NCBI GenBank assembly: GCA_900095095.1
Contig: FMBT01000328.1
Coordinates: 248,001-312,000 of the forward strand
Length of the DNA: 64,000 nucleotides
DNA from: Fragilariopsis cylindrus CCMP1102
Lineage: Eukaryota; Bacillariophyta; Bacillariophyceae; Bacillariales; Bacillariaceae
Direction: 5' to 3'
Positions within the stretch are counted from its first letter, which is position 1, and every line of letters starts with the position of its first letter. Both the position numbers and the translations under genes were made by a program. Of this stretch, positions 18,501 through 47,558 are shown piece after piece. The notes beneath the pieces are model-generated. The model saw only the letters and a program-made list of their open reading frames with translations, searched no databases and had not been told where the DNA came from.

Positions 18501-20120
18501 TTAGAAGTCTGCATCGAAATTGTAGCTCCCACGTGTTCCCGCCGAGGAAGACTGATCGAGAGAGGCCATGACACCACTTTTTTGATACTCTCCTACTCGC
18601 TTCTCGAAAAAGTTTGTTTTGCCTTCCAAACTAATCATGTCCATCCCTGTCGTGAAGTAAATGCGTTATTAAAGAAAGAAAGAACGTTAGAAAAATGGAT
18701 AGGAAGAGAAAACGATCGAGAATCATATCAATATGAGACGATCTAGTTCGTATTCAACAGAGCACATAACAGCAACAACAAAAAGAAACTTACAGTCAAA
18801 AGGATTTTTGCTTCCATACAACGGTCTGTATCCCAGGTCCCGCAAAAGTCGATCGGCTACGAACTCAATGTATTGTGCCATCAGAGACTTATTCATTCCA
18901 ATTAAACTAACAGGAAGAGCATCACAAACAAATTCCTTTTCAACTGTCACTGCTTCTCCAATCAGTCGATGGATATCTTTTTCGGAAAGCTTCCTCTCTA
19001 ATTTGGAATATAGCTGACATGCAAAGGAACAATGCAGACCTTCATCACGACTTATAAGTTCGTTGGAAAATGTTAATCCGGCCATTAGACCTCTTTTTTT
19101 AAGCCAATAGATGGCGCAGAACGAACCGGAAAAGAAAACACCTTCAACAGCAGCGAATGCAACGAGTCGTTCCGCAAATGAGGCATCGGATCCAATGTAC
19201 CGTTGAGCCCAATTAGCCTTCTTCTCAACACTAGGCACAGCGGTATGTGCTGTAAAAAGCGTCTCTCTATCTTTGGGATTGGTAATATAGGTATCAATCA
19301 ACAAACAGTATGTTTCCTGATGAATACTTTCCATAGCCATTTGAAAGCCATAAAAGCACCTTGCCTCGGGAACTGTTATATCTCGACAGAATCGTTCTGC
19401 CAAGTTTTCCACAACAATCCCATCGGCTCCTGCAAAGAATGCCAGGACCATACTGATAAAATGTTTCTCGTTTTCGGTAAGGTTTTCTTGCCAATCAGTT
19501 AAGTCTGCCGATAAGTCAATCTCGTCTGCTGTCCAAAAGGACGCCACATGTTGTTTGTACATACTCCAGAGATCGGGATGTTCGAGTGGAAATAACGAAA
19601 ATCGTGCTCCATCATCATCTTTGCGGCAAATCGGTTCAACAAATCCATCGGGGTACGACATAGTTTTTCTGCACCAAGTAGAGGCGCTTACTTCGTCTTT
19701 TATGGTAGAAATTTGTTGCTGTTGTAGTGGCTCTCGTTGCATTGTTGAGCCACCCCGCAACGGTCGCTGCTGAACAGTATCATTAACATTGGCGTTCACA
19801 GTAGTACAATTGTCTTGATTTTCAGACAAAGGGTTGTTACTATTTGCCTCATTCGCATCCCCTCCTCTCAATCTTTCGTCTACAACGTCCTGAATAGTGA
19901 TCGCGTGCCTTCGATTACGGCGCTGACGATATTGTTGATATTTACTGCTGGATGATGGATAGAATGGAAGATTGTTTCTTTTGATATTATTAGAAAAGCT
20001 TGGCTTTCCTCCCCAAATCCCAATACCCTCTTGTGATAATGGGATAGATGATGAACATGAAACGTCCACCAGAAGTACAAGAAGCCAATGTAATCTTTTC
20101 AGTGAGCGTATGGACGGCAT
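18501..20120 (-). CDS. Ribonucleotide reductase small subunit (R2), N-terminally extended
   Basis: Exons 20120..18794 and 18646..18501; the 147-bp intron splits the Trp codon of NPFDWMDM. 490 residues. The class I R2 diiron site is complete: Asp233 (GADGIV), Glu264 and His267 (MESIHQETY), Glu326, Glu360 and His363 (RDEGLH), with the radical Tyr271. The C-terminus ends NFDADF, the tail that docks on the R1 subunit. R2 supplies the tyrosyl radical for making deoxyribonucleotides. The odd part is about 155 extra N-terminal residues before [10 protein letters not shown]. They begin with a hydrophobic run ([13 protein letters not shown], 10-22) and are then Asn/Gln-rich with no known domain. This could be an organelle-targeting extension, or translation may start at Met154. 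Confidence 0.95.
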
Positions 20121-27422: not shown

Positions 27423-28378
27423 AACTTATTACTCTTACCACAATGTCAGATATTTAACATCATAAACAAAGAATTAATGAATCAAACAAATTCTTATACA
27501 ATTGTACGGTAACTGTTGACAAACCTTTCCTAGCTTGCAGAGTAGCGACATTAATCAGCATTCAAGTTTTAATACCGTATTGCGTAGTAGAATCAATGTA
27601 TGAAATAACAAACTCAAAGCATCAGAATTTTTCCTGGCTAACCAATGGAACTGGTGCGGTGGTGGAAGTCGTATACTATCAGGTTTTATAAAATTATCTT
27701 AAATGTTGCTTATCTGCTGCATGGCTTAGTCGCAAAGCATAGTTTAACAGCAATGGGTCACCTCTATAAGAGAAGACAGAAAAATTACAGAACGTAGCAC
27801 TACAATAGTATCCAGTAGTAATTTAGCTATTGAACCTTCAAAGTTCAAAGAAGTAATTAATCGATTGTTTGTGGAGGAAAAAACACATATTAGACTTTTT
27901 GATCATACGGTACCACCAATTGCTAAACCAAACAAAAAAACTGACACAAAATTAAAGATATTTATCACTTTACAACTAAAAAACACTGATTACAGACACA
28001 ACATGAATGTTTTAACAACCGTAAGATTGACACAAAAAAAACGAGAAAAAGCTTCTAGAGTCAAAAATAGTAGTAGCTGTAACTTAATAAAATTTTCTTT
28101 CCGAATTTCTCCATACATACATACATACATACATACAATCTTTTTGATGCGATATATCTACCTTCAGAAATATTCATTCAGTTCTTGATAATGATAAAAC
28201 GATCATTTTTATTTTCTTTCCTTCGCGTTTAATCTATTATTCACTTATTCCACGATACTAGTATTGTTTTTATGGGAGTTTTCCGTGGGAGTTTAGCTGG
28301 AGCTCCACACTCATATCAACTATTTTTTCCACACCTTTTGAATTGCTTGACTTTTGATCATTTTTTCTACATGTTATT
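27423..28378. other. Intergenic stretch (956 bp) with a short CATA repeat
   Basis: AT-rich, no recognisable ORF. A (CATA)6-type microsatellite occupies about 28112-28136. Confidence 0.5.
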
Positions 28379-28791
28379 TTATGGAGCTGGACAGGATCTC
28401 TCGCAATTGAAGATTGCTCGACCCAAATCGCGAGGCCATGTGACGAATTTTTCTATCGATATGTCGTTGATCGAAAAAAGAGTTTAGTATTGAATACGTT
28501 ATCAGAATACGTTACAAAGGATATAAAATGGACAAACAATATCGAATTAGTGTATCGTCAAGCTCCAGTGAGGTAGTAAACAATTCTACGTTACGAGCCT
28601 TTTTTTTCTCTTCGATGTCTTGCAATTAACTTACCAAAAAATCTATTTATACTTTTGAATGGGTCTGGAAAGCATGCTTCAATCGGTTGGATTAAGATCC
28701 ATACAATTGAACAAGCAATAGCTAAAGGCCATCCAATAAAGATAAGAAGAGCGAGCCAAAGAATAGCAAATATCGGATTTTTTGATGCCAT
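28379..28791 (-). CDS. Mini membrane protein, EKxxxWPRD family, copy 1
   Basis: Exons 28791..28635 and 28452..28379; donor GTAAGT, acceptor CGATAG, phase 1 within the Glu codon of FFEK; 76 residues. The reconstruction is supported by two paralogues in this window. Residues 7-36 are hydrophobic (IFAILWLALLIFIGWPLAIA and on), probably one long or two short membrane segments. Then come PIEACFPDP (36-44), FEKFVTWPRDLGRAI (52-66) and a tail with paired cysteines, ending CPAP. No function is known to me and no named domain is recognised. Reading straight through the donor gives a false basic tail. The start follows the paralogues: MASKNP lines up with MGNNN of copy 2. Confidence 0.8.
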
Positions 28792-29428
28792 GGTTAACAA
28801 ATTAAATGCTGTACAACTACAAATACGGTACTGTACTAATAGTATGCTGGATATATTTTTAAATGGATATCCAGAATTCGAAACTGGCTGTACTGTACGC
28901 AAGCAAAACTTCAAATCGAAGAAATTAGCTTGCAAAGCATTGGAAAAAATACAAAATAGCTCCTGTATATTATCGGATTTTTTCGTGACATGCTCGCGAA
29001 GCTATATTACTTAGAACAATTGTCATCGTTAGGGCATATATAAATTTGAAATTCCAGTATCGAAAAGTATGTTGTGATGTGCATGTAATAAGCTGAGAAA
29101 GAAGAACTTATCACGTAACAAACAATGGGAATTGAAAATCTAATACTAAATTGCAGTAGTTAACTTGTATACCAAAACTGTAAAATAGTATGTGGTTATC
29201 TTTATTATACAAAGGGAATTAATTTCGTTCTATATTAGTTGTCGTTTTCTCGATCTATACAAATCGAAAATCCAAGCGGAATGAACGAATCTGCCCATGT
29301 GACGAAATATTTTGTGCCTTTTTTCCATCACTTGAAAATTCCAGTCCGTTTTTTTCTGTCGTAGTATCCGTTCCATTCATTAGAAATCAATCCTCGTTGA
29401 TCATGTGATTACTATTTATTGAAAATAT
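28792..29428. other. Intergenic stretch between mini-protein copies 1 and 2 (637 bp)
   Basis: Contains the promoter of copy 1 and the 3' region of copy 2. No further copy of the family or other feature was seen. Confidence 0.4.
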
Positions 29429-30002
29429 CTAAAACGGGGCAGGGAAACTGCTTTGACCTTTAGAGATAGCATCTAGTAGTGAGGGTGCAAAACGATTTAG
29501 TTATTGAAGGAAAAAAAGAAAAGAATATTATTAGCAGTCATCGTTCTGGTTCAGCGACATCGGCAGTAAATTATGAGTATGTAACTTACAACCCAAATCG
29601 CGTGGCCACGTTATCAATTTTTCAAGGAATCTGGTGATACTCTTGGTAGGATCTGGAAAGCATGCTTCGATCGGCTGTGTTGTACAAATAAATAGAATAA
29701 AAAGAAAATATGACGTTATCGGTTAGAGATATAGATAAGAGTTTTCTTTTTTTGTTCTTTTCTTAAAAATCGACGGCATAAAAACATAGAACCGCGAGAC
29801 GCAACATGTACATCATGATATACTCGTCGTCGATCCCGAGCGGAGGCAGCTTCATCCGTCCGAAAGGTACCAGTACGTAACTTAGTACTGTACTTACTTG
29901 AAGAAGAATCCAAAGCCAGCTACACGCCCAAGCTATCGGCCACGCAAGGAAGACTAGTAGCGCAAGCCAGATGACCGAAAATATAAGGTTATTATTTCCC
30001 AT
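29429..30002 (-). CDS. Mini membrane protein, EKxxxWPRD family, copy 2
   Basis: Exons 30002..29898, 29674..29590 and 29472..29429; introns of 223 and 117 bp with GTAAGT donors, phases 0 and 1; 77 residues. It closely matches copy 1: IWLALLVFLAWPIAWACS (11-28), WILLQPIEACFPDP (31-44), then FLEKLITWPRDLG (51-63). The third exon was chosen because it restores AI and a terminal PAP as in copy 1, so it is the least certain part. The paired cysteines in the tail of copies 1 and 3 are absent here. Tandem, same-strand arrangement with copy 1, 637 bp apart, points to local duplication. Confidence 0.75.
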
Positions 30003-30915
30003 TATCCAGTACTTTTACGATGTTGTCGTTGATTGGCAATAGTAGAAATTATGTGTTGTGAACTTGTAACGATTCGATTTGATTTTTTTTTCATTTTTTC
30101 ATTTTCGCTTTCGTTCGAATTTGCCAATGAAAGTCTTGTCGCGAGCCAATAACCGCGCAGGAACCAAAAGACGGGATCCCCGCCCTCCTTTTCAATAATA
30201 CATTGTACATACTAACTTTACAGTGGTACTTGTATCAGGTAACAATTATAAAAAAACATTCATCCAGATATATATTAGTAGTAAACTAAACAATATACAA
30301 TTGTAGGACCTAGATACGATGATGATGATAGTGGTATTATATATAAATTTTCTTCCCATATAATAGTTAGATTTAAGTGCTTCAAATCAGATCACCATTG
30401 TTGCTTCAATTTTGTGTTGTCATCACAGCTTGTTACAATTTCAGTAGGGACAGAATTTCCTAGAGTGTAGTTACCGCTGCATCAAAATCTATGCAAAGAA
30501 AACTGTATCTAGTTCTGTTTTATATACCACAATTTAGATGCTCATAAGTCAGGCACATTGCCTACCAATTTCTGGGGGGTAGGTTGATACAAAATATTAA
30601 TTCAATTGCAGACTAAATTGGTCTAATTTTCAAGTCAGTTAAATGTAAATAGGGCCCTGATTATGTCACTTTTTACAGTTATCTACAGTATTATCAATTA
30701 TCAATTATTACATATATTTGATTTCTAAACTAGTAAATTTGTCCTATAAACAATTCTTTGTTGGTGACACATCCCTTTGTATATTAGATTTCTATTGCTT
30801 TGACTAACCTCTACAATCATTGGACACTGATACATCACTAACTGAATCTTTATAGCATCCATAATCAATTTTCAAAAATGTCATCGAAGTCGATAGGTCT
30901 ATGATTATGTTTTAT
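30003..30915. other. Intergenic stretch (913 bp), nothing recognised
   Basis: AT-rich spacer between mini-protein copy 2 and the PDI gene; no ORF or repeat worth naming. Confidence 0.4.
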
Positions 30916-32352
30916 TTATTTGTCCTTTTTTGAATCTTCGTTCTCCATTGACCCCTCATCGCTTTCTGATCTTCTTTGAACAAAATGTTCAGAAGACGGT
31001 GTTGCTAGATAAATAATAACACCCAGTAGAACAACGATAGGAACGACACTAAATGGCATGAATTGAACAAATTTATTAGTCATCCATTTAAATGGATCAT
31101 CACTGAACTTAGTTCTTTCGGGATTTCTTGGAGGAATAGTTCCGTCGTCTACAGCTACCAAAAACTCGGTCAATTTTGTGTATGTCTCATTCCTCCAGTA
31201 CGTCTTTCCTGGTTGGTCAAGTGGAGCAAGGATCAAGAACTGTGGATTGTTTTCTTGTTTCACTCCGAATTGTTGTAGGAATTTTTGCCATTTTTTCCCA
31301 TCAAATATCCCGTAATAATGCTTTTGTACTATATCTTGTGGAGATCTCAAAATGTAATCCATCATATGATTTTTAGTACCTTCGACTAGTTGTTCATCTT
31401 CCATGTCAACAATTCCCATAACCAATGGCCGACCGTTTCTACTAATACGAGGAAAATTGTGAGGTGTTAACATTGAAAGAGTTGGAACATTTTGATCTTT
31501 GATCCAAGAAGTCAAATTTTCCTCCGTTAATTCCGTTGCATCCCATCGTCTCGGTTCTCTAACCCCTGACTCGATTCTTTCGATGTATGCATTATCCCTT
31601 CCATCATCGGTTGGCCCTTCTAATTGATCCAGCCATAAAAAGTAGACCGACGCTTGATTCTTTCTTGCCACCTGTGAGAATAGCTTGTACAGTTCTGAAT
31701 CTTTCGGTGACGATCCCAAGAAAACAATCCCCTCATCTGCTGTATTCTTTGCAAACTTCATAGCCTCCTCCAATCGACGAATGTGAGTAATGGGAGGCGA
31801 AGACATTTTTTCAGCGAATGCAACAAGCGATTTTTCATCACGACCACCCGAGTAATCAAAAACTTCTCCATCGATAGAGTATTTAAGCGTTGGGAATCCC
31901 TTAACCTTTTGTTCTTTACAAACAGCCTTATGCTTTGTACAGTCAATTTTACCAATTGCCATTTTTCCTTTCAATGTTGGAGCGATAGCTTCCAAAACTG
32001 GGGCCATCTTTTTACTGTATATAGTTGCATCAAACGTAAGTATAGCAATGCCATTAAATATGAGTTGCGTCATTATAAAATAAAAAGCGAAGGCGAACTT
32101 TCTGTTCTCCCCTCTTCTAGATACAACAAAGAAATCAACTTACCAATGTCCACACCAAGGAGCATAGAATTTAAGAAACCAAATTGGATTGGCTGTGTCA
32201 GTGATCGCCCCCGCGAAGGAATCGTCGTCCAAGTCCACAGGTGCCGTATGAGGAGTCCCTCCAACATACTCTGCAACAACAACAGTCGATGACACCAGAA
32301 GCCAGCTTGTGCTTGCCAGGATACAAATAATAGGAAATTTGAGAGAATTCAT
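30916..32352 (-). CDS. Membrane-anchored protein disulfide isomerase (one thioredoxin domain)
   Basis: Exons 32352..32144 and 32014..30916; donor GTAAGT, acceptor TATACAG; 435 residues. The intron splits the codon of the second active-site cysteine, so only the spliced product shows APWCGHCKKMAP (CGHC at 67-70). A signal peptide (FPIICILASTSWLLVSSTVV) precedes the thioredoxin fold, which also has GFPTLKY with its cis-proline. A long, mostly thioredoxin-like region without a second CxxC follows. Near the end is one membrane span (about 391-406, FSVVPIVVLLGVIIYL) and a short acidic tail ending KKDK, which fits the KKxx ER-retrieval signal. This layout matches TMX3-type or plant PDIL5-type oxidoreductases that act on folding proteins in the ER lumen. 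Confidence 0.9.
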
Positions 32353-32590
32353 ACTGTTATCAGAACTTTCTTTGTGGATAGAATCGTTTTCACCTACGCT
32401 ATACCGGTACGCCGAGAATAGGTTTGAAGATTTCTTGATGACTTTTATTATGTGTTGCTTGTTTGTTTGATTCGAATCTTCTTGAAAAAGTTTCTTTTAA
32501 AATTTGAAAAAATTCTCGTCACAAACATTGAAGAACTGAAATAGTTCTTTAAACTGAATCATTATTACAGTATTATGAAAGAAAATATGA

Positions 32591-32780
32591 TGCAGTGCGT
32601 ACATATATCACGGGACTAACACTAGTGATTCATCGCTAAATCAATCGCTAACGAATCAAATGAACTGCCTCCATTACGATGGAAGCAGCTCTCTAGAATA
32701 GAACCCAATACTAATGCTTATAATATACATTATCTCACAATAGAAAGCCTCTTCCCTATATACTAGTCTAGGGCATGGCA
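32591..32780 (+). repeat. 5' LTR (190 bp)
   Basis: TGCAGTGCG...GGGCATGGCA, identical by eye to the 3' copy. It begins about 240 bp upstream of the divergently oriented PDI start codon. Confidence 0.96.
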
Positions 32781-33429
32781 TGATTTTAAAATCTTACTAA
32801 TAAGTTATTGACAATAAGATAGGACGTAATATTTTATCTAAAATGAAGTACTACGTACCTCTTGTTCGAAACAAGTAGGCATCGATAACACCAAGAGTGA
32901 TATCGAATGGACGACAACAACCATGGTGGAGAGAAAGCTCCTATACCAGAACGTTGAACAATGATAAGATATGGAGGAGTCTAAGAGCTCCATCGTATCG
33001 CTTCAAGGCAGTATCAACCATCGTTGATATCAACTTGGAAGAAAATCACATGATATGATGAAGCGAAATAGAATTAGCTATTCTAATCGAATGAGTCATA
33101 TATTGATTGAGGTGCGCGCAAGCACACATTCAATAAAGCACGACAGCCAGAAAGGCATGCGTGTCTAACTTCCAACGCTTAAGTAAAATAAGTCGTTGAG
33201 AGTATTATACAAAAATACATAACAATGTATGGATATATTAAAAGAAATAATTAGAGGATTAGCAACATGTGTAAGGTACCCATTACACAAGCCTAACTAA
33301 GTAAATGTCATTTTAAATGAACTGACACTAACTGACAGGTGCCCAACGGGTTAAATACAGCGATCACTGTCTCTAGCACTGAGTATTCAATATTGAAAAT
33401 TCAATCGCACAAAAATTATAGGAATTGTA

Positions 33430-34824
33430 ATGGAAATATTACAACCACACAACCACAAACACGTTCGATTTAATATTAAAAATATTGATTTGACCATGGC
33501 AAAATCCAACCGTAACAACGCTGAAGAGCCAGCCAAGGAGGCAGCCAAGGCAAAGAGGGTCCATAGAATCAGCGGGTTCAAACCGTTCCTCTATGACGCA
33601 GAAGAATGGGATACGAAATCCCCATCTCAGATCCTCAAGACAACTGAAAATGGAAATAGAATCGATAATAAGATGTACATTTTACAGGGTGATGAAACAC
33701 CTGAACAGTTAATGTTATGGATCAAGAACTACAATGACAAGATCAATGTAGCTCTTGCACCAGCAGCACGATTAACCTTCCTCAGAAGAATCGTGGACAA
33801 GGAAGCACAAACCATCGTAAGCAATGTGGAAACAGCCTTTGAAGGCTATTCCGATGCTGAAGATATTGACCTTATTGAAGATCAAACTATCAGAGATGAG
33901 ATCAGAGACGACTGTCCTGATGATGCTACCATTGATGCGTACTTCAACGCTGGTAATGCAGCGCAGAAGAGAAAGAAGATAACACATATCATCCGTGAAT
34001 GTATGTATCATCTTAAGCTCAAGATATTTGGTAATGAAACTCTTGGAAGATCAAGCTTCATTCAACTAAAGAGATCCATACGTAATATGAAGATCTCACC
34101 ACAACTGGGAGTAGCAGCATGGAGCAAACGTTTCGATACGTTCCAGCTATACCTTCCTATGTGCTTGTGGGATGCCGGCGCGAAGAAAGGACTTTATCCT
34201 ACAAAGTATGATGAAGAGAACTGTCGAGAGATATTAGAGTACGCTCTATCTCCAGTATACCTCACGAAACTTCACGATGATGGGTGGTGCTTACAAAGCA
34301 ACACATACGTCCAATCAATCACCAAACTCAAGGAGATTGAACCGGGTATTCTTAAACAATTAAAATTTGTAAAAGAACAGTTGCAACAAGCAAAAGATAT
34401 TGCTGAATTGCAGAAAGGAAAAGGAAAATCTTCAAGTACTGCTTCATCTTCTTCAAATAGAAAGCAGAATGGTGGAGAGAAGCGCAAGCGCGAATGCGAC
34501 ACCTGTGGCAAGAGGCATGCAGGTGAATGTTGGAAACTCCAGAATGGAGGAGGGAACAACGGTGGTCGTAAGGGTAATAATTATAATACCTTCAACAAGG
34601 AAGCTAAGCAATACATGAAAGCCATGTTTGCAAAGCACACCGGCGCAAGCTCCGATTCAAGTGATTCCGATGACGAAGAGCCTTGGAAGAAGGGATTGAA
34701 TCAAGCAGAACAGATGCATGTACTAGCATCAGCTGGCTTTGATCCTAGTGAAAGAAATATCAATTTCGATCCGTCAGATCTTAAAAGATACAAAAAGCAA
34801 GCAAAGAAGTACTTCAAGGGTTGA
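33430..34824 (+). CDS. Retrotransposon Gag-like protein
   Basis: First large ORF of the element, 464 residues. A helical capsid-like region (with FIQLKRSIRNMKISPQLGVA and AWSKRFDTFQLYL) is followed by a Lys/Ser-rich linker and a short zinc-knuckle-like CDTCGKRHAGECW. This is the position and content expected of Gag in Ty3/gypsy elements. A second ATG at 33496 is an alternative start. Confidence 0.85.
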   Translation: MEILQPHNHKHVRFNIKNIDLTMAKSNRNNAEEPAKEAAKAKRVHRISGFKPFLYDAEEWDTKSPSQILKTTENGNRIDNKMYILQGDETPEQLMLWIKNYNDKINVALAPAARLTFLRRIVDKEAQTIVSNVETAFEGYSDAEDIDLIEDQTIRDEIRDDCPDDATIDAYFNAGNAAQKRKKITHIIRECMYHLKLKIFGNETLGRSSFIQLKRSIRNMKISPQLGVAAWSKRFDTFQLYLPMCLWDAGAKKGLYPTKYDEENCREILEYALSPVYLTKLHDDGWCLQSNTYVQSITKLKEIEPGILKQLKFVKEQLQQAKDIAELQKGKGKSSSTASSSSNRKQNGGEKRKRECDTCGKRHAGECWKLQNGGGNNGGRKGNNYNTFNKEAKQYMKAMFAKHTGASSDSSDSDDEEPWKKGLNQAEQMHVLASAGFDPSERNINFDPSDLKRYKKQAKKYFKG

Positions 34825-34881
34825 AGTACAACAGCAACAAAGAAGCCGCGCCGAATCCTTCATAGGCCTACGCCGGTACTC

Positions 34882-37800
34882 GTGGGTACTGTTGACGGTA
34901 CGCTATATCCAAGCCGAGCTAAACCACTACATGGCGCTAGACGCTACTGTGAGGTACTGCTCTCAATAGTTAATGACAATGGTCATGAAACTATGGCTAG
35001 ATGTCTCCTAGACACTGGATGTACCAAGTCAATGATACTGAAACAGTTCACAGATAAGAAGCGACGAACCAAGTTGTCAAAAGAGAATACTATCAAGTAT
35101 GAGACGTATGGAAGTACCTTTCACTCTGCAATGACAGCTAGCGTGGGCTTCAAGATGATTGAATTCGAAAATCAGAAGAATCAAACCATCGAATACAAGT
35201 TCCAAGTGGATGAGACATCTAACCCAAGAAAACAACAGTATGATGTTATTATTGGGAATGATCTCCTATGGAATATGGGTATCAATATCTTATTCAAGGA
35301 ACAAGAAATTCATTGGAATGAAGATAAGATCCCTCTTAAGACTATTGGTCAGTTGCACAACCGTGCAACCTGTAACATGCTCTATAGCATGCACACTGAT
35401 AGCCCTCTTCTACAAGATGCAGAAGAGAGACAAAACAAGATGCTGGAATGCAATTACTCCAAGGTCAACATAGATGCTATGGTTAATGATCTAGATATTG
35501 ATTCGAACAACAAAGAAAAGCTGAAAAAGACCCTCCGTAAATTCGAAAAGGGTCTCTTCGGTGGAGGTTTGGGTACACTCAAACACTGCAAGCCCGCACA
35601 CATCAAGCTCAAGCCTGGTGTGGTGCCGTATAAGGGAAGGTACTTCAACCTTCCTAAGGCTTACGAATATATCGCGAAGAAAGAAGTGGAAAGAATGGTC
35701 AGCATTGGTGTACTACAAGAGTTACCATGGCATGATGATAGCCCTTGGGCTTCTCCATCCTTTGGCGTATCAAAGAAGACTGGTGATATACGTATCGTAA
35801 CAGACTTCCGCGAGTTGAACAAGTGGGTTGAAGTGGATCCTTTTCCACTTCCACGAATCAACGAAACACTGCAGAAACTTGAAAAGTTTAAATCTGCAAC
35901 AGCTCTTGATCTATCTCTTGGTTTCTATACGATTCCACTTGATGAAGAGAGTCAAAAACTATGTGCGACTATACTACCCTGGGGGAAGTATAGATATCTA
36001 AGAATGCCTATGGGTGTCGCGTGTGCTCCATCAATGTTTCAGTCAATCATGACCGAAACACTTAGAGGACTAGATGTACTTGTATACATAGATGATATAC
36101 TGGTGATTCAAAGAGTGAATGAATCAACAGAAAATCACTTACAAAAGGTTGAGCAAGTTCTGCAGCGTCTACAAGATGCCGGATTCAAAGCTAATCTTAG
36201 AAAGAGTTTCTTCATGCAAAAGAGTGTGGAGTATCTCGGATACCAGCTCACTAGTGATGGTATAGGTCCACAGCCAAAGAAAATTGAAGCAATGGACCGT
36301 ATATTACCACCCACTAGTGGAAAGCAACTAAGAAGATTCTTAGGAATGATCAATTTCTATAGAGATCTCTTCAGGGGTAGAAGTCATATTCTAGCCCCAT
36401 TGAATGAATTAGCAGCAGCTTCAACAAAGAAGAAGAACAGTACCAAACGTCCTATTCCATTTCTTATGTTGGAAAAGCATCTAGCTGCATTCAACAAAGC
36501 CAAGGATATGATAAAAACAGATGTACTGTTATCATTTCCAGACTTTGACAAGCCCTTTCACCTGTACACAGATGCAAGTGACATCCAACTGGGCGCAACG
36601 CTCGTCCAAGACGGCAAGCCACTTGGATTCTATACAAGAAAACTAAGTGATCCACAATTGAACTACACTGTAGGTGAAAAGGAACTCCTTGGTATCGTGG
36701 AAGGCCTGAAGGCATTCGCGGGTGTTATTCGTGGGCAGGACCTGACAGTCCACACGGATCATCTCAATCTCCTCTATGCCAAACTGCCTAGTCAAAGAAT
36801 GATGAGGTGGAGAAATCTTGTAGAAGAATATAATCCTAAAGTGGTCCACATTGCAGGCATTGATAATGATGCTGCAGACGCTCTATCAAGATTAGATCTT
36901 AACGACAAGGCTGATGACTTGAGAGTGTGGGAACAGAAACAGAAGAGACTACAGTATGAAGACGTAAAGATGATGAATCTTTGCATGTTTATGTCAGAAT
37001 CAAACTTCACTGAAGATGGTTTTGACTCTGATAACGACATACTGAAGACTGCAACAACCAACAACCAATCGTCATATCCATTAGATCTACAATCAATGCA
37101 AACAGCACAGCTGGACGATGAAAGCTTAGTAAATATGGTCGACAGCCACATTAAAAGCAGTACAAGTTCAACAACCTACACATATAAATCTGTGGAAGGA
37201 ATTGAACTGATACACAAGAATAACAGAATATTGGTACCCCAATCAAAACAACAAGTTGTATTAGAGTGGTATCATAATATCTTAATTCATCCAGGTGAAA
37301 AACGTATGATTGATACAATCAAGTTAGTATTCACTTGGAGTGGTCTTAACAAGCAAGTAAAGCAACTTGTAAAGACCTGTCATGAATGCCAGATGTACAA
37401 GAAAGCTGGCAAGAAAAAGTACTCACTACTTCCACCAAAAGACGCAGAATCTATCCGATGGAATAGAGTCAATGTAGATCTATGGGGACCAAAGTCAGTA
37501 GTGAATACAAATGGTTTTACATATGAAATCCATGTAATGACCATGGTCGATCCAGTCACTGGGTGGTTTGAACAACAACAGTTATATGGTCCTCCAACAG
37601 CATACCGATGCCAACAAATCCTTGACAGCGTGTGGTTGTCAAGATACCCACGCCCAAAAGAAATTGGATTTGATAATGGAACAGAATTTAAAGCAGAGTT
37701 TGCAGAACTCTGTGATAATATGGGTTTAAAACAAAAACCAAGTAATGCTTGGAACCCTCAATCAAATGCTATACTAGAACGTATACACCAGGTATTAGGT

Positions 37801-38277
37801 GATGGTTTAGCAACATTTGATTTAGAAAATACACCAATCGATCTTGAAAATGAAGATCCATTTGATGAATACCTCTCTTCAGTGGCTTATGCAATTAGAT
37901 CATCGTATCATCAATCGCATGGACACTCACCAGCACAGCTAGTGTTTGGAAGAGATATGTTTTCACCAGTATCAACTGAAATTGACTGGAATGAAATCAA
38001 AAATAATAAACAAACAAAAATAAACAAAAATAATATTAGAGAAAACTCAAGCAGAGTACCTCACATCTATCAGAAGGGTGACCTCATCACCCTGAAGAAG
38101 CCAGGCATCCTTCGCAAGCTAGCAATACCTCGTGAAGGACCTTACAAAGTTATTAAACATAACAACAATGGATCAATATTAATTGAAAAATCCCCAACAA
38201 ACATCAAAAATGTCAATGTTAGGAGGGTTGCTCCATACTATCGCAAACTTGAAACTCCTCCCACAACAGTTGAATGA
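34882..38277 (+). CDS. Retrotransposon Pol polyprotein (PR-RT-RH-IN)
   Basis: Second large ORF, about 1130 residues. Landmarks in order: aspartic protease LLDTGCTKSM; reverse transcriptase with VTDFRELNKW, ALDLSLGFYTIPL and YIDDILV; RNase H with LYTDASDIQLGATL and the downstream Glu and Asp; integrase with the HHCC zinc finger, the Asp of NVDLWGP, the Asp of IGFDNGTEF and the Glu of NAILERI. A GPY/F-type module (REGPYKVI) follows integrase; no chromodomain is seen. Confidence 0.93.
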   Translation: MGTVDGTLYPSRAKPLHGARRYCEVLLSIVNDNGHETMARCLLDTGCTKSMILKQFTDKKRRTKLSKENTIKYETYGSTFHSAMTASVGFKMIEFENQKNQTIEYKFQVDETSNPRKQQYDVIIGNDLLWNMGINILFKEQEIHWNEDKIPLKTIGQLHNRATCNMLYSMHTDSPLLQDAEERQNKMLECNYSKVNIDAMVNDLDIDSNNKEKLKKTLRKFEKGLFGGGLGTLKHCKPAHIKLKPGVVPYKGRYFNLPKAYEYIAKKEVERMVSIGVLQELPWHDDSPWASPSFGVSKKTGDIRIVTDFRELNKWVEVDPFPLPRINETLQKLEKFKSATALDLSLGFYTIPLDEESQKLCATILPWGKYRYLRMPMGVACAPSMFQSIMTETLRGLDVLVYIDDILVIQRVNESTENHLQKVEQVLQRLQDAGFKANLRKSFFMQKSVEYLGYQLTSDGIGPQPKKIEAMDRILPPTSGKQLRRFLGMINFYRDLFRGRSHILAPLNELAAASTKKKNSTKRPIPFLMLEKHLAAFNKAKDMIKTDVLLSFPDFDKPFHLYTDASDIQLGATLVQDGKPLGFYTRKLSDPQLNYTVGEKELLGIVEGLKAFAGVIRGQDLTVHTDHLNLLYAKLPSQRMMRWRNLVEEYNPKVVHIAGIDNDAADALSRLDLNDKADDLRVWEQKQKRLQYEDVKMMNLCMFMSESNFTEDGFDSDNDILKTATTNNQSSYPLDLQSMQTAQLDDESLVNMVDSHIKSSTSSTTYTYKSVEGIELIHKNNRILVPQSKQQVVLEWYHNILIHPGEKRMIDTIKLVFTWSGLNKQVKQLVKTCHECQMYKKAGKKKYSLLPPKDAESIRWNRVNVDLWGPKSVVNTNGFTYEIHVMTMVDPVTGWFEQQQLYGPPTAYRCQQILDSVWLSRYPRPKEIGFDNGTEFKAEFAELCDNMGLKQKPSNAWNPQSNAILERIHQVLGDGLATFDLENTPIDLENEDPFDEYLSSVAYAIRSSYHQSHGHSPAQLVFGRDMFSPVSTEIDWNEIKNNKQTKINKNNIRENSSRVPHIYQKGDLITLKKPGILRKLAIPREGPYKVIKHNNNGSILIEKSPTNIKNVNVRRVAPYYRKLETPPTTVE

Positions 38278-38310
38278 CAATAGGATCTATTTGAAATACT
38301 AATATGGATC

Positions 38311-38319
38311 GGAGGAGAA
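38311..38319 (+). other. Polypurine tract of the retrotransposon
   Basis: GGAGGAGAA lies immediately before the 3' LTR, the expected place for plus-strand priming in LTR elements. Confidence 0.7.
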
Positions 38320-38509
38320 TGCAGTGCGTACATATATCACGGGACTAACACTAGTGATTCATCGCTAAATCAATCGCTAACGAATCAAATGAACTGCCTC
38401 CATTACGATGGAAGCAGCTCTCTAGAATAGAACCCAATACTAATGCTTATAATATACATTATCTCACAATAGAAAGCCTCTTCCCTATATACTAGTCTAG
38501 GGCATGGCA
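38320..38509 (+). repeat. 3' LTR (190 bp)
   Basis: Second copy of the 190-bp LTR, followed directly by the TATGA target duplication. Confidence 0.96.
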
Positions 38510-39427
38510 TATGAGCAACCAAACTATATATTTATTTTCGTACAACGTATTCCTTTTGTTCTACTATTACACAATAAACTGTATTGTAAACTCATGTGTT
38601 GTTATTCTTCCATTGGCTACGTTCGCATCATAGTATTCCTTCAAATAATAATCATAATAACAACATTGTTGAAAAATGTAACTGTATAAGAAAAACAGTA
38701 GCAAAAAGAACTAGTTTTATAATGAGGTATGGATATCTTGGCCAATCGTATTAATACAAATTATTCCTCTACAATTTATATGTAATTTTCTGTCCAGGAA
38801 CGGTAACTTCAATACTAATATTTCCTATCACATACAAAAATCTTATTTAGACTGCATTCCGATCAGGCAAGTCTCCCCAATGCAATGTTGATTGACAAGC
38901 TAAATGTCCAGTGGCACTCTATTAACAAAACTCAATTATTATCTTCAGGGTCAGTAAATGTTACATTTTTTGTACTGTAGATAACATACTTTAGTACCAT
39001 TTTCCATCAGAGTGAGAACAAGTGTAACGTTAGTGGCTTGCTAAATATTTTAGTAGTTTTTTTTATTTACGATTGTTTTGACATTGTACTGATATAGTCC
39101 TTTTATTTTGTTCCGCTTGCATGCTCGATTTTCAAAATCTCACGAACAGAACAAACAACAGTACTGTAACACAACAATAACACAACAACAAGACAACAAC
39201 GACGACACAAGCAACAATAAGTGTCGCCAACAAACCAAGTACAAACTTCCCCTATTTCATTGGTGCTACGCTTGTAATCTAACGATCTGTGTCCTATAAT
39301 TCCAACTGGCAATCGGATTTTGATCATCGATCTTTCTGAATCAGAAATTCCATCGAATTGAATTGAATTGAATCGAATCGAACGCGCCAATTTATACAGT
39401 ACGTGATAAAGCTTCAATTTTGTTAAC
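38510..39427. other. Intergenic stretch (918 bp), nothing recognised
   Basis: Between the retrotransposon and the APC3 gene. Only simple ACAAC-rich and GAATT/GAATC-rich stretches (near 39150-39200 and 39350-39380) stand out. Confidence 0.4.
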
Positions 39428-42400
39428 ATGGGAGCTCCAATAACATCGTCTCGACTACCACCAACGTCACTTCAACAACAGCACCAACAACAAAGCATTC
39501 CAGGAATAAAGAATGGCATGACAACACAGCAAGAAATGGATCAACAAAGTTTGGAGACAACATACACGTCTTTGATTCAAGAATATCTCCAAGTGATGTG
39601 TCTAGACAATGCAACATTTTTAGCGGAACGCATGGTTGCAAGTTGTCGAAGTACCAACGCATACTATCTATTAGGTGTTTGTCATTATCGGTCTCGGGCG
39701 CCTCAACGTGCTCTAAGTGTCTTGGCAAATAACATCCATCAGTCATCGAGTGGCAGTGGTGGTGGTACGAAATATCATCATTCCGCTACTGCCTATCTGA
39801 TAGCCAAATGCTGTTTTGAGTTGCAACAATATGGTCGTGCAGAAGAGGCTCTTTTAGAGGCGGCGCGTTCCGACTATAAGGAGTACAAATCTAATCGTAA
39901 TCAAGGCAATAATGGCAACGGCATAAGTAATAACAATAATAATAACAACAACAAAGACGGAAATGGAAATGGAAACGCTCTTATGAGTATGGACGAATGG
40001 TTAATCGAAACTTCACCATGCCCGATTCCAAATGGAGCGGCGGGACTTTACCTGTTGGGAAATATTTGTAGACGGTCTAATCGTAGACGTAGGGCGATGG
40101 AATATTATCGCATGTCGCTTCAGGTACGTTACGTTACATTATATATTATTATTTGATTTGATTTGTGCCAAATATTGTCGACGTCGTCGTGTTAGGGTGG
40201 GCTGGAAAGAATTAATTACTTGCATTTTATTTTACAATGATACAAACTTAACCCGTCCTGTTTGAACTTTTAAATCTGAATCTTAATTCTCTACACGAAT
40301 TCGAATATTTGCTAAATCTTGTTTATGAAAAAAATCTGCATTACTATCATCATCTGCATATTACGTACTGTAGCTGGATCCTCTTATGTGGGTAAGCTAC
40401 GAGGCTTTATGCGAAATGGGAGCTGTAGACATCGACCCAACATCAGTCTTCGGTGTAAGACCAGCTGAGATTGACCTATTACAAGAACAACGCATGAAAA
40501 ATCAACAAACCACAGGTAACGGTGCACGAGGAGAGACTATGCCTCTTCAAGAAAAACCGATACACATGACACCTCATCATCATTTCACTCCACCCACAAC
40601 AACGATGGGAGCGATTGCCACCGGTTCTGCGCGGCCTATGGAAGTGGTGGGGACCCCTCAATCCATTGGACCGAAGGCTTCTCTTTTTCAAACGGCTCAA
40701 AAATCTTCTATTAAACTAGGAACAGCGGCAGATACAGGGGGTGGGGGTGCCATTCTTCCGAATCAACTTCAATTTGGTACTCCAAATCTAACACCAATTC
40801 CAATGCAACAAGACGCCTCGTTTGTACACCCTCATTCAGTAATTTCGCTAAATGAGAGAAGGTGTGGTGCCTCTACGACTGTCGGTTTCGTCGACTCGCA
40901 CAATCCTCATACCATTCGACGTGCAAAGCACGTTGCAGCACGATTGTATTACCAGCCCACTCCCGAAACTCCACAATATTCTGGATTAATGACGATAGAT
41001 CCGTCTACCAGTGCTAGACATCATATGAAATCACCTGCAGTCGAAATTGGAGCAATGGGGGGAATTGGCGCCGCTTCTTCAACTCGTAGGTATTTGCGTG
41101 GTAAGTCGGCATTGCCCATCTCTCTACTAGAATCATCAACCATATCCGAAACGCCATTACGAGGAGGACGACGACCGGATATATCCACGACGCGAAGACC
41201 ACGAGCTCTATTTTTGTCAGAAAAAAGATCCGCGAGACAAACTAAGCATACTACTGCCGGTACAGATGAAGATGATCAGTTGGTAGTTGAAGACGAAGAG
41301 AATTACCATTATCGTAGCATAACTGGTCGTCCTTTACTTGGTCGACTAGAGGGAGAAGAGAATGTTGTAATGGATCATCATGGTGTTAATCAACACCGTA
41401 CCGACGATTCTGAGCAACCAAATATCATGATGATGACCGAAGATGGCAATAGTGATAACCAAATTTTAGCCGAAAATGAAAAGCCGGCAACGGCTATTTC
41501 AGAAGCTAATAATAATGCTGCTTCCCATAGGGAACTGACCATGGCTCTCGAAGAAGATATTGTAATGGAGAAGCACGATGGTGCCGTTCAAAGTATCCTT
41601 GAATTGTTTTGCTTGTTGGGAGCTGGTTACTGGAGGTTATGTCAGGTAAGTATTATTGTTATTATTATTATTATTATGCATAACGATATTTCTTATCTTG
41701 TTTTTGTTTCTGTACCGTATACAATCTTTTTTATTTTTGCTCACCGCTTCATTACTTACTTGATTCATTCTGGCTTTTAATGATACTCTACTATTGAAAT
41801 AGTTCCGATGCCGAGAATCATTGCAACTCTTTAGCGTTTTACCGCATGTTCAACACAACACAGGATGGGTTCTTCACCAAGAAGGAAGAGCTTACTTTGA
41901 AATGGCCGAGTATCAAAACGCTCAACGTTGTCTCGAATTGATGCAGGGGGTTGAGCCACATCGCATGAAAGGTCTTGATCTTCTGTCAACCGTTCTTTGG
42001 CAACTGAAGAAGGAAGTCGAGCTTGCTCATTTGGCTCAACGCACTGTAGATTTCGACCGATTGGCACCAGAAGCTTGGTGTGTAGTTGGTAATTGCTTTT
42101 CCCTGCAAAAAGAACACGAAACTGCGTTGGTCTTCTTTGGTAGATCTTTGCAATTGGACCCATCGTTTACGTACACGCATACTCTATCTGGATATGAATA
42201 TATGGCAAATGAAGACTTTGACAAGGCCATGGCATGCTTTCGAAATGGGATTCGATTGGATGAACGTCACTATAATGCTTGGTATGGGATGGGAGCTATT
42301 TATCACAGACAAGAAAAGTACGACCTTGCAGAATATCACTTTCAACGTGCCGTTCAGATCAACCCACAAAGCTCGGTGTTGCGTTGTAACCTAGGTATGT

Positions 42401-42753
42401 CCCAGTATTCTAATGGAAAGCCAGTTGAGGCATTGAACACATTGGCAGAGGCCTTCCGGTTGGACCCTCACAATCCACAGGCACGATTCCAGCGTGCAAC
42501 GATCTATATTGCTCTGAATCGTCCTGAAGAAGCATTGAAGGAGTTAGAAAAGGTGAGGGATGCTGCACCACGAGAGGCAACGGTACACTTTGCAATGGGA
42601 AAAGTTCTGAAGCGGCTTGGAAGACCTGAACAAGCCATGCGATGCTTTTTGACAGCCCTTGACCTTGACCCAAAGGACAACCAGCTTATTAAATCGGCAA
42701 TGGATAAACTTGAGGAACCTGACGTTTTAGAAGAGGCGGAGGGAGCGTTTTAA
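39428..42753 (+). CDS. CDC27: Anaphase-promoting complex subunit 3 (CDC27), TPR protein
   Basis: Exons 39428..40123, 40374..41645 and 41803..42753, all phase 0; 972 residues. N-terminal helices (FLAERMVASCRSTNAYYLLG, HHSATAYLIAKCCFELQQYG) match the APC3 dimerisation TPRs. The splice rebuilds SLQLDPLMWVSYEALCEMGA, close to the LDPFLWSSFExLCxxG segment of CDC27. A polar linker of about 350 residues follows, then nine or so C-terminal TPRs starting at NTGWVLHQEGRAYFEMAEY, with YNAWYGMGAIYHRQEKYDLAEYHF-type units. APC3 binds the IR tails of Cdc20, Cdh1 and APC10 in the ubiquitin ligase that drives mitotic exit. Length is in the normal range. Confidence 0.93.
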
Positions 42754-43574
42754 AATTAAAAGTAACCTATATAAAAGCACCGTCTTTTTGAATTTATCTA
42801 ACTTTGGTTGAATTAAATTAATTTCCAATCAATTTTTGATTCAACTACGTGCCTTGTCTTGCTCTCCTCTCATTATACATCTATCATATGATAACTCACT
42901 TTGTCCAAATACTAGTAGGGTATTGTTGTTATTTGATTACTCTGGAACTTGGAATGCTCTGCAGTGAAAGCATTCCGATAGCATGAACAACTATGAGAAA
43001 AAATTGAACCTTATTGTGCGATTCATTTGAGTCTAGCTATAATTGATCCTGCACGTATAAATAATGTACATACATGCATGAATGCACACATGCACGCACA
43101 CACACACACATTGTTAAAATTTCAATCCCAATTGATGTGTAGCACAGGGATAACTGGACTGATCAATTTGTTGCTTTTCTGGTTGGAGAAAGATCTGTTT
43201 ATAATCTAATGTAGATTTTCCAAATTGAACTACTAAGTTTTATCTCTGTACTGTAGATACATTGTACGGTAATTACAGTTACATTTTGTTTGTTTTTTGT
43301 TTTTTCATTGTAAAAAAAAAATCATCTTAACTTCTGTCGTAAGTACGTCACTGACGTTTCGTTTTTGTAGAGTCGGATGAGTCACAGTGCGAAAATATCG
43401 ATCTTTATTCTTTACTATTATTTGTTCTTATTGGCACAAAGTGCGGAACATACAAACTTATTTTCATAAATTATTCATTGTATTACAGTACACATCATCC
43501 AAGTCGTTGCTGCTATCATACTTGAATTGTAGTTTACTTACACCCTAACGAAAGATAACGAGTTTACGAAAACC
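42754..43574. other. Intergenic stretch (821 bp) with a CA microsatellite
   Basis: No ORF recognised. A short (CA)n tract lies at about 43090-43111, and a T-rich/A-rich stretch near 43275-43322. Confidence 0.45.
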
Positions 43575-44452
43575 ATGAAGTTTTCAACGATTTTTGTTGC
43601 ACTAGCTCTTGCTTGCAGTGCAAATGCCTTCTCTACCCGTACGTGAAATTGACATGACACGCCGATTACCCATTTTGACTGACAGAGAGTTTCTTTCGGT
43701 TTAATATCAATTCAATCACTCATCGTACTTATTTCTTTCACCCCCCCCCCCCCCCCTCTTTCTCTATGTTCTGGAATTGATAAAATGATATAGAGACGAA
43801 CAAGGCTACCACCAACAAATCAGTCATGAGAGATTTGAAGAAGCACGCTGTCAACACCATGGCTGCAATCGCTATCGGTTCGAGTGTATTAACAACTCCG
43901 ATGGTTGCTGATGCCCTTGAAACTCAAGCGTTCTTTTCTTCGACTACTGTTGTCGCAGAAAAGGTTGTTCGTGAAGGAATTTACAAAGAATATGAAGCTC
44001 TTATTGACCAAGATGTTGATGATGCTCGTTCAACATTCAAGAGCGCCAAAGAAACAAAATCGAAGAAAGGTTAGTACACGAGAAAAATAGACTACTGAAC
44101 AAAAAAATGTGAATAAAGATGGTGGATTATTTATTATATTTACTATCATTGGGATCGAAAAAATACCATTTCTATTTTCATTTCCTGCTTTATGCGTGAT
44201 TTGCTCACATTTGTTCCTACTGCGCATTAATACTATACTATTACTATAATGCAATCAATCATTATTTGGTGACTAGGTAAATACACTGCTATCCTTGCTA
44301 TCCTTGTGGTCGGATCGTTCATCATTCCTATGGCACAATACTTTTGGTACGTCCGTGATGACGATTCTTCTGATAGATTCTTCGGCAAAGCTCCTGAACC
44401 GCCACCACCACCACCACCTCCAAAGAAGAAGGGTTGGTTTGGAAAAAAGTAA
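43575..44452 (+). CDS. Probable thylakoid membrane protein with bipartite plastid targeting
   Basis: Exons 43575..43638, 43794..44069 and 44277..44452; GT-AG introns in phases 1 and 1; 171 residues. The N-terminus MKFSTIFVALALACSANAFS is a signal peptide ending in an ASAFAP-like site (Phe19), the signature for import into secondary red plastids. A Lys-rich transit-like part follows. A second hydrophobic stretch (about 44-60) ends in ADA before LETQ (cleavage after residue 62), typical of thylakoid-lumen transfer. The mature part has a charged helix (KVVREGIYKEYEALIDQD), one membrane span (about 117-135) and a stromal tail with eight prolines and KKKGWFGKK. I do not recognise the family. A small photosystem-associated subunit is a reasonable guess only. 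Intron 1 has a 16-base C run. Confidence 0.85.
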
Positions 44453-44880
44453 AGAATATGATTCTGTATGATGTATTTAGCGTAAAAATGATACGATTTA
44501 TTCTATCGCGCTATGTAAATGCTAATTAACAACACTCATCATAGTATATACGCAAAATCGAATACCACCCTATAGACATACTGATGCATTCCTACTAGAT
44601 GGAGAATGTGTGATTAATCTATTCGACAAAATAATATAGCGAGATGCAGGTAAATTATTATAAATACATTTTTTATTTTTATTGTTCTAATATTTTTCCG
44701 TACTCATTACGAACAATTGTTATGTCAGTGTGGTTGCCGCATGGGGACGGTATGTTGTCACGATGTTTCATTACTTAATCTCTTCGTTATGTAATTTTTT
44801 GAAAAAGTCGTCGGACAGTGATGTCCATACAGAGATACTTCTTATATCATCCCCGGAAGACCGGATACTGTATTGATAAA
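44453..44880. other. Convergent intergenic spacer (428 bp)
   Basis: Shared 3' region of the thylakoid-protein gene and mini-protein copy 3. No other feature seen. Confidence 0.4.
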
Positions 44881-45254
44881 TTAAGGTTGCGGACAGCTAC
44901 TGCTGCAGTTAGCGATTGCGGAACCCACGTCGCGTGGCCATTTTACGAACTTTTCTAGAAACCCATTGCAGTCAGCGAAAATTGGACAAAGACCTTCGAG
45001 GGGCATTAGAATAAGCCACAAAGGGGCGACGATGAAAGAAATCGGCCAGGCGATAAAGAAAAGAAGAATAAGCCCTATAATGAACGATCCCGTGTGAGAG
45101 AGTTATTGGAAGTTGTGACGAAGTAGTGAATGCGGAATGAGTGAGACGAGAACGTGTGGAATGTGAATTTGTTCTTTCTTATATCACAGAATACTGAGAA
45201 GGTATGACATGGAATATACGTACAACATAGCGAGTAGCACGGATTTCCTCCCAT
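44881..45254 (-). CDS. Mini membrane protein, EKxxxWPRD family, copy 3
   Basis: Exons 45254..45227 (28 nt) and 45074..44881; the 152-bp intron is GT-AG (donor GTTGTA, weak; acceptor TTATAG), phase 1; 73 residues. The longer open frame lacks any ATG and meets a stop upstream. The short exon supplies MGGNPCYSL and rebuilds the Trp of WLILLFFIAWPI, matching WLALLVFLAWPI of copy 2. Conserved parts are PLEGLCP (34-40), FLEKFVKWPRDVGSAI (48-63) and a cysteine-bearing tail ending CPQP, as in copy 1. The join is inferred from paralogue alignment, so exon 1 is the weak point. It sits 428 bp downstream of the thylakoid-protein gene, convergent with it. Confidence 0.72.
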
Positions 45255-46110
45255 CTTTCTTTTTTTACTTTAGAATGTTTAGATGAAACGGAATAAAATT
45301 AATCCTCATCGACGCTTCTGACATTCGAAAATTATGTGGAGCTAAACCACGGCGTGGCGAATATGCATGCCAAAGAAAAATATGTAATATCAGTTCCGAG
45401 GTGTAGTACTTCTTCAGGAAATTACCATTCAATGTGCCTACGACATCGCTCTTTTCTCTAGAGCATAGTTGTTAAGAAAAGAAGATAACTAAATCGAATG
45501 GGTTCATTTGTCATCGCCAATGGTTGTTCGATCGTCATACTAAAAACTTGAAATCTATTGATTTTCTCGTATTTTGCAGGTTGCCGCCACCATTAAATAA
45601 TGCAATAGCGATAACGCCTAGAATTAATCGCCAGAATATGGATTTCTTTCGCTATTCTTGTTTTCGATTGATTTTTGAGATTGGAAAAGAAACGTAATTG
45701 AAAATAGTTTTTCGCGCGCGCGCGGTTTTGAAATCATAAGATGAGACTGTAAAAATTACTACAAAGTAGTTTCGAAGTTTGTTGAACGACAGCACATCAT
45801 TAAAACATACTAATAACGCAACGTTACCGCAAGAACAACCACCAATAAAGTTAACATCATCATATCAAATCACCGACCTCCTACCTTGCATCTTCACCCA
45901 AATATACTGTGCAACTTTTTTGCTGCGACGAATCGACTCACTTTAAGACTTCGTCAATACTACTGCGACCCACTGGCATTTGGATTGTAGACGTTTTATC
46001 TCGACCAAGTCAACACGTTAACCGCGTGTCGTCGACATATACATTTTAGAAGTTCGAAAATATCGAACGCGGAAAAAGAAAGGAAAGAAAAAAGAATAAA
46101 AATTGAAAAC
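45255..46110. other. Intergenic stretch (856 bp)
   Basis: Between mini-protein copy 3 and uL23m; a GC dinucleotide run (CGCGCGCGCGCG, about 45713-45724) is the only striking element. It holds the divergent promoters. Confidence 0.45.
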
Positions 46111-46488
46111 ATGATTGCTGGAGCGGCTAGCTACGCTAAGCAATTTCGCATGTGGATGCCGAACATGCCCATGCTCATGGTATCAGCGAAGAATGCAACC
46201 GCAAGACAACCGGCGCGAGCTACCTTCCGTGTTTTGCCTCGAATGACGAAACATGAGATCAAAGAATATTTAACGAAAATTTATGGTCTACCCGTTCGAC
46301 AGGTCAATACGTCAAATTATATGGGAAAACGTAAGATTGTTCGAGGTTCCTCTGCCGTTATACGGTATAAGTACGCAGATTTCAAGAAGGCGGTAGTATC
46401 ATTCGATAGAAGTTTCACTGATGTAGGCAGGGGAATGCGTATACCAGAGATTGACGACGACGAACCTGAACCTGAACCCCAAGTATAG
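46111..46488 (+). CDS. MRPL23: Mitochondrial large-subunit ribosomal protein uL23m
   Basis: Intronless, 125 residues. The core ATFRVLPRMTKHEIKEYLTK followed by IYGLPVRQVNTSNYMGKRK and YADFKKAVVSF is the uL23 fold as found in mitochondrial members (TKxEIKEYLxKIYGLPV). Bacterial and plastid uL23 end differently, and the cytosolic protein has a long basic N-terminus that is missing here. The first 35 residues (MIAGAASYAKQFRMWMPNMP and on) are basic and amphipathic, fitting a mitochondrial pre-sequence. The acidic tail ends in EPEPEPQV. In ribosomes uL23 lies at the polypeptide exit. Confidence 0.88.
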   Translation: MIAGAASYAKQFRMWMPNMPMLMVSAKNATARQPARATFRVLPRMTKHEIKEYLTKIYGLPVRQVNTSNYMGKRKIVRGSSAVIRYKYADFKKAVVSFDRSFTDVGRGMRIPEIDDDEPEPEPQV

Positions 46489-47558
46489 TTCTCTAGTAGA
46501 GACAAGAGAAAGATATATCAGTATTTTACTTTAGAAACCAAACATACAGATGATATCCTTTTTCTGCAACTACGAATAAATGTCGGAAATGATAGATTAA
46601 TGATAAAGGATATACATTGAGAGATAAATGTTACTAATGGCGGTTCTTCCATTTAATGTAAATGACAAAAAAGCCTCTTCACATATGACTAACTTTTAAA
46701 ATGTACTGGAGATAAATTTTAGAACCGTTTACTTGGACTGAAATTTACCTCAGTAGTGTCTTATATACAAATGGCAATGAGTAGTACATACAGTATCAGA
46801 GAAAATGCCATTTGTATTGTATTGTATTGTATTGTGTGTGTGTGTGTGTGTGTGTTGTAATAGTCTTGAGAAGTACTTCTCAGCTATAATATTAGTAGTA
46901 GTAGGGCATTAATATGCATATTGTAACAGGGAGAAGAAATACTGTTGATCAGAAATGTACATCTGGATGCCCAACAGTCACGTGAGTGAGGATGTATGCC
47001 GCAATGTACAAGTGTACTGAAACTTTGCTCTGTATTTTGTATGCATCTCTTCCACAGAAAATAGTCCTCACTCCATGCCAATAATATTTCATAGTTTTTT
47101 ATGATTTAGAGAAGAAGTTACTATTATTCCTTAGCTCTGATTTCAAGATCTACGATAGGGAATTCTAGTGTGGAGGATATCTTGATATTATTTTTGATTC
47201 AGTACGTACTGCACCACTAACATGTAAGTTCCGGTGATACGATTTTTCATAAATTACAATAATCAATCGCGCCTTGTTTTTTTGTTTACGTTCAGCTGCA
47301 TGCACGCGTCACCATTCCTTTCTTACGGTACGTTGAGCGTGACATTCATTCATTTATTCGATTCATTCGACTCGAATTTTTGAAATTAGAATTTTTGAGT
47401 CATAAATTTTTAGTGATTTTCACACCAATTCACAAACCCATTTAAGCAGTGCGAAAAAGCAAAAAATATTCTTCTATTATCATCATTGATTGGAGACATA
47501 AAAGGACTGAAGGTATATAGATTATGCTAGTAGGGTGGTGCTGCGTTCTGTTAGAAAA
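46489..47558. other. Intergenic stretch (1.07 kb) with TATTG/TG repeats
   Basis: (TATTG)n followed by (TG)n occupies about 46811-46855. Otherwise AT-rich sequence without recognisable genes. Confidence 0.5.

Follow-up and report, generated by a model that had tools for sequence, protein, structure and literature searches.

Phospholamban, sarcolipin and stannin are regulatory microproteins that cross the membrane once and carry an amphipathic helix, and reticulon and caveolin are hairpin proteins that shape membranes, the reticulons with paired hairpins. The proteins described here, which we call the WPRD family, resemble the first group in their length, below 100 residues, and in pairing an amphipathic segment with a single hydrophobic stretch, but neither Pfam nor the PDB offers a credible match to their sequences, and they carry features of their own, a WPRDxGxAI block and a W-P-W span. 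They resemble the second group in that a hydrophobic stretch of 33–37 residues adjoins the amphipathic segment; unlike that group, they have one stretch rather than paired hairpins and no Pfam match, and a weak structure model favours one helix. Some small uncharacterised animal proteins may have the pattern WP...P(F)ExC...LPxxCAxNM, putative candidates being the fly genes CG34330 and CG34331. In such proteins the elements would come in a similar order: WP within the hydrophobic part, P-hydrophobic-E-x-C, then a helix with E-K and a proline. To our knowledge, no known family has the WPRDxGxAI block or the W-P-W span.

We analysed a window of 64,000 nucleotides from the diatom Fragilariopsis cylindrus CCMP1102, in which three loci (wA, wB and wC), all on the minus strand, encode such proteins. 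In wA, exon 1 (28635..28791) starts with the ATG at 28791 and encodes the hydrophobic stretch and PIEACFPDPFKSINRFF; an intron of 182 nt (28453..28634; GTAAGT...TAG, phase 1) splits the first codon of exon 2 (28379..28452), which encodes EKFVTWPRDLGRAIFNCERSCPAP and ends in a stop codon. The wB gene has three exons. Exon 1 (29898..30002, ATG at 30002) runs through ...WILLQ and is followed by intron 1 (29675..29897; 223 nt, GTAAGT...CAG, phase 0); exon 2 (29590..29674) encodes PIEACFPDPTKSITRFLEKLITWPRDLG; and intron 2 (29473..29589; 117 nt, GTAAGT...TAG, phase 1) splits the first codon of exon 3 (29429..29472), which encodes YAISKGQSSFPAPF and the stop. In wC, exon 1 (45224..45254, ATG at 45254) is joined across an intron of 149 nt (45075..45223; GTACGT...TAG, phase 1) to exon 2 (44881..45074), which encodes the hydrophobic stretch, LEKFVKWPRDVGSAIANCSSSCPQP and the stop. 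All four introns are thus of the GT-AG type, 117–223 nt long, with GTAAGT or GTACGT as the donor.

Joining the exons gave full open reading frames of 76 (wA), 77 (wB) and 74 (wC) amino acids. The preliminary description, made from the letters of the window, had reported three spliced minus-strand loci encoding proteins of 73–77 residues; all three proved to be full ORFs, and the one splice site to be revised is the wC donor, which had been placed at 45226. The donor lies at 45223 (GTACGT) instead of 45226 (GTTGTA); the change adds one residue (74 versus 73), and the 45223 model scored 99.8 bits against a leave-one-out profile of the family, compared with 92.0 bits for the 45226 model, which ranked second. 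The three proteins align end to end, as had been claimed, with 64% (wB) and 47% (wC) identity to wA. Between wA and wB, the similarity is confined to exons and is not shared by the introns: the two nucleotide matches at E < 1e-4 are both exonic, one of them extending three bases into an acceptor site.

None of the three loci contains a single uninterrupted ORF in the window, as had also been noted, and this is what would be seen if splice sites had been fitted to unrelated stretches or if the loci were pseudogenes. We asked how strongly the models are determined by the DNA. For each region, all intronless, one-intron and two-intron GT-AG models with introns of 50–400 nt and proteins of 50–130 amino acids were enumerated, and the distinct proteins were scored against a profile of the remaining family members (leave-one-out). 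The adopted model ranked first in every case: 1 of 159 for wA, 1 of 3457 for wB, 1 of 317 for wC and 1 of 1812 for a spliced gene outside the window (C312, below). Because leave-one-out profiles contain our own splicing of the other members, we scored the models a second time with the protein of an intronless member (C414, below) as the sole reference, and the adopted models again came out on top for all four spliced genes. Together with the intronless paralogues described next, these results confirm wA, wB and wC as genuine spliced genes of one family. Very small membrane proteins split by introns are easily missed in annotation; the earlier claim that none of the three loci would be picked up by standard gene calling is too strong, as eukaryotic gene callers model introns.

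A search of the genome (67.9 Mb in 818 contigs) by single-protein and exon-by-exon queries and with the WPRDxGxAI DNA pattern, an approach that distant members may escape, found six loci of the family, five of them distinct. What had been presented as a three-member family is accordingly larger. The three further copies lie outside the window: C312 is a spliced gene of three exons encoding 74 amino acids, and C414 and C295 are single uninterrupted ORFs of 75 amino acids each that differ by one residue. These two collinear intronless copies were recovered with the wA protein as the query at E values of 5.3e-21 and 5.9e-21, which argues against fitted splice sites. Their DNA is 90% identical over 2 kb and 79–88% identical, with many gaps, over longer flanks; C414 and C295 are therefore two haplotypes or the products of a recent duplication. 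We took as members those proteins that align end to end and share W-P-W, P-x-E and E-x(4)-WPRD-x-G-x-A-I, and all of these features were present in wA, wB, wC, C312 and C414, with the near-identical C295 in agreement.

The WPRD block was also compared with chance expectation. With one mismatch or none allowed, the degenerate DNA pattern for WPRDxGxAI occurred at 5 places in the 67.9 Mb, compared with 0 for the reversed control, and with zero mismatches it occurred twice in the window, compared with 0 in 100 shuffles. The wB locus is absent from these matches because an intron splits the block there. The shorter WP[RS]D pattern is common (105 places in the 67.9 Mb genome versus 43 for the control) and is no evidence on its own. 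A chance origin of the family is thus very unlikely.

Substitution patterns point the same way. We used 14 of the 15 pairwise comparisons, setting aside C414 against C295 and comparing each of these two with the other four loci. Synonymous differences exceeded non-synonymous ones in all 14, with pS at 0.64–0.91 and pN at 0.22–0.41; between C414 and C295 themselves, 5 synonymous changes and 1 non-synonymous change were counted. The proteins are therefore under purifying selection, and, as they have stayed alike despite near-saturated synonymous sites, the family has a real function. Set against this selection, the top-ranked splice models and the intronless paralogues, the idea of fitted or decayed genes is very improbable. 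Intron positions add some history: intron 1 of wB and intron 1 of C312 fall in the same alignment column and have the same phase, and the remaining introns are differently placed. This suggests that the family predates the local pair in the window and that introns were gained or lost among the copies.

The proteins share one order of elements: an uncharged hydrophobic stretch with an invariant W-(9)-P-(8)-W leads into P-x-E, after which come a segment that is amphipathic in most copies and, last, the WPRDxGxAI block. Residues invariant in the five distinct proteins include, in wA numbering, W12, L16, P22, W31, P36, E38, E53, W58-P59-R60-D61, G63, A65 and I66. Two motifs described earlier need adjusting: P(I/L)ExCxP holds for wA and wB, with PLEGLCP in its place in wC, and the EK before WPRD takes the family-wide form E[KR]. 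C414 and C295 have YP in place of WP at positions 21–22, the proline itself being invariant throughout the family. The hydrophobic N-terminus of membrane type was borne out, the uncharged stretch being 33–37 residues long with a mean hydropathy of 1.5–2.0. In the 15 residues preceding WPRD, the helical moment was 0.60–0.75 in five of the six copies (four of the five distinct ones), values reached by 7–92 of 10000 shuffles; the amphipathic signal is weak in wC, where a moment of 0.45 was reached by 483 of 10000 shuffles.

A stretch of this length with an invariant proline at its centre could be a hairpin that is bent at (A/G)WP and returns to the same face of the membrane, and such a hairpin, together with the strongly amphipathic segment adjoining it in five of the six copies, could act as a wedge and bend the membrane as reticulon and caveolin do. 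To look at the fold, structure prediction was run on exon 2 of wC together with four window exon pieces (five partial rows). The resulting low-confidence model (mean pLDDT 63.2, pTM 0.30) has helices at residues 2–26 and 35–58 of wC exon 2, the long one continuous through WP and the second containing WPRD. The model leans towards a single helix over a hairpin; the conserved hairpin proposed earlier thus finds no counterpart in the sole model, although at pLDDT 63 that model is too weak to settle the question. Two tryptophans 19 residues apart also suit a single span, the invariant R, D and E would exceed what lipid wedging needs, and neither the reticulon nor the caveolin family was matched in Pfam at E values up to 10. 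We consider a membrane-shaping role unlikely.

The hydrophobic start might instead be a signal peptide whose cleavage frees a short mature peptide rich in cysteine and proline. The proteins are short, carry 2–6 cysteines each and end in a P-x-P tail, as a secreted peptide might. However, no cysteine column is invariant across the five distinct proteins, few signal peptides would be expected to have an uncharged stretch as long as 33–37 residues, and the would-be signal peptide contains the invariant W12, L16, P22, W31 and P36, for which there would be no need in a segment that is cut off. For these reasons, we regard secretion as highly doubtful.

We favour a different reading, with a probability of roughly 0.42: that the family consists of nuclear-encoded integral membrane microproteins of about 75 residues that serve as single-pass accessory or regulatory subunits docking on a larger membrane protein. 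Judging from the sequences, the hydrophobic helix between the invariant tryptophans, 19 residues apart and with the invariant proline midway, would span the membrane once; the chain would leave the bilayer at P-x-E; and the amphipathic helix would lie on the membrane surface and display the invariant WPRDxGxAI block. The microprotein could then dock on its larger partner with its membrane helix and with the surface that bears WPRD, by analogy with phospholamban or stannin, and the paralogues may differ in the partner, membrane or conditions to which they are tuned. Invariant charged residues in the WPRD block would fit a specific contact better than generic binding to lipid. The specific membrane partner envisaged in the preliminary description is plausible. 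The signalling or stress role that it offered as well found no evidence in the present sequence analysis.

Library searches agreed with the earlier remark that no described family with this signature is known, there being no credible match in Pfam, NCBIfam or PHROGs. In Pfam, wA, wB and wC matched 0 families at E values up to 10, and searches with five members gave single-member matches only (Nramp, 0.0034; DUF2749, 1; ITAM_Cys-rich, 4), none of them credible. Nramp (PF01566) is a multi-span metal transporter, whereas the proteins here have 74–77 amino acids and one hydrophobic stretch; its match to one of five members at E 0.0034 is taken as noise of hydrophobic composition. None of the five members matched NCBIfam, and one PHROGs family matched one of the five at a non-credible E of 0.37. 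Against PDB sequences, a profile search at E values up to 10 had a single match, at E 1.1, to the splicing protein 3id6_A, which we take as chance; no solved regulator of the phospholamban or sarcolipin type was matched. As far as sequence comparison goes, the WPRD proteins are a real small family that is undescribed in the libraries searched (Pfam, NCBIfam, PHROGs and PDB).

In viral contigs, a profile scan matched 51 stretches and a single-protein scan 11, with 0 confirmed in either. The DNA patterns matched 2, then 2 and 1, and then 3 and 3 stretches of viral contigs, and the WPRD pattern matched 53 stretches of prokaryote genomes, the translations being unrelated throughout. All 64 viral and prokaryote pattern stretches were rejected as relatives on inspection by eye of their translations around the match, many of which contained stops; the best of 55 pattern stretches (viral and prokaryote) scored 16 bits, a value attainable from the imposed pattern alone. 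WPRDLG, four variants of it and the phrase "WPRD motif" were not mentioned in the open-licence literature, where it is rare for a protein sequence to be printed as text, and the open-licence papers listed for small diatom proteins likewise yielded nothing on the WPRD family. Proteogenomics in another diatom reported 1235 novel protein-coding genes, and the portions of that paper examined contained nothing on the family (PMC10077189).

The subunit reading can be extended, in a form we think somewhat unlikely, to an ancient family of eukaryotic membrane microproteins of about 75 residues, as yet undescribed, of which the WPRD proteins would be the diatom branch and in which WPRD, or an LP variant elsewhere, would dock on one conserved partner, and which would have stayed out of Pfam because its members are tiny and split by introns. 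Should the family also occur outside diatoms, a conserved family would so far have been missed. Its signature, a W-P-W span followed by WPRDxGxAI, is a clean marker for locating the family in other genomes and for finding its partner.

Around the genes, no word of 6–9 bases was present in all five upstream stretches (300 nt each). Words present in three or four of the five somewhat outnumbered those in crude block shuffles (28 7-mers in three of five versus a mean of 14.5, and 18 6-mers in four of five versus 15.2), many of them A+T-rich. There is thus no clear co-regulation motif upstream of the family, though a weak one may exist. In ORF lists inspected by eye for the window and for 7.6–10 kb around the outside copies, no neighbour that would point to a partner recurred at the window loci, C312 and C414, and no Rfam family reached its gathering score in 27500–46500. 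Separately, the light-harvesting proteins agree with a diatom origin of the genome, in which the chlorophyll a/b-binding family has 104 matches. Of two such proteins compared with PDB sequences, one is closest to FCPI-7 of 6ly5 (1.5e-87), an entry from the diatom Chaetoceros gracilis, and to a fucoxanthin chlorophyll a/c protein of 6l4u; the second has one PDB match at E values up to 1e-40, LHCI-11 of 9vfj.

Between wB and wC, two of the spliced WPRD microprotein genes, repeat comparison together with a reading of ORFs and Pfam matches identified an LTR retrotransposon (32586-38514). The repeat comparison detected a 192-nt exact repeat at the two ends of the element, which we trimmed by eye to identical LTRs of 190 nt each (32591-32780 and 38320-38509), starting with TG and ending with CA. 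As the LTRs are identical and TATGA adjoins the element on either side, the insertion is probably recent. Internally, a 1131-aa ORF matched reverse transcriptase, RNase H and integrase in Pfam; the Pfam search returned no match for a 464-aa ORF.

The ORF listing also included a hydrophobic-rich ORF of 928 aa (49437-52223), for which a Pfam search at E values up to 0.001 gave no matches. Ahead of it lies another ORF (48041-49330), whose product ends in an acidic tail, and the two may be pieces of a single gene. Such a gene (48041-52223) would perhaps encode a MARCH6/DOA10-like ubiquitin ligase, a guess based on inspection of the sequence.

Contigs C414 and C295, which lie outside the window, are 79-88% alike across their intronless WPRD microprotein copy and longer flanks, and several light-harvesting genes occur as equal-scoring pairs with members on different contigs. 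The assembly may therefore contain uncollapsed haplotypes.

TPR and phosphatase domains mark a serine/threonine phosphatase 5 gene (24955-26481), apparently divided by a short intron near 25700. The ribonucleotide reductase small subunit (18723-20120) was assigned by a Pfam match that starts at residue 173, preceded by a low-complexity N-terminal extension. By eye, this extension begins like a signal sequence.
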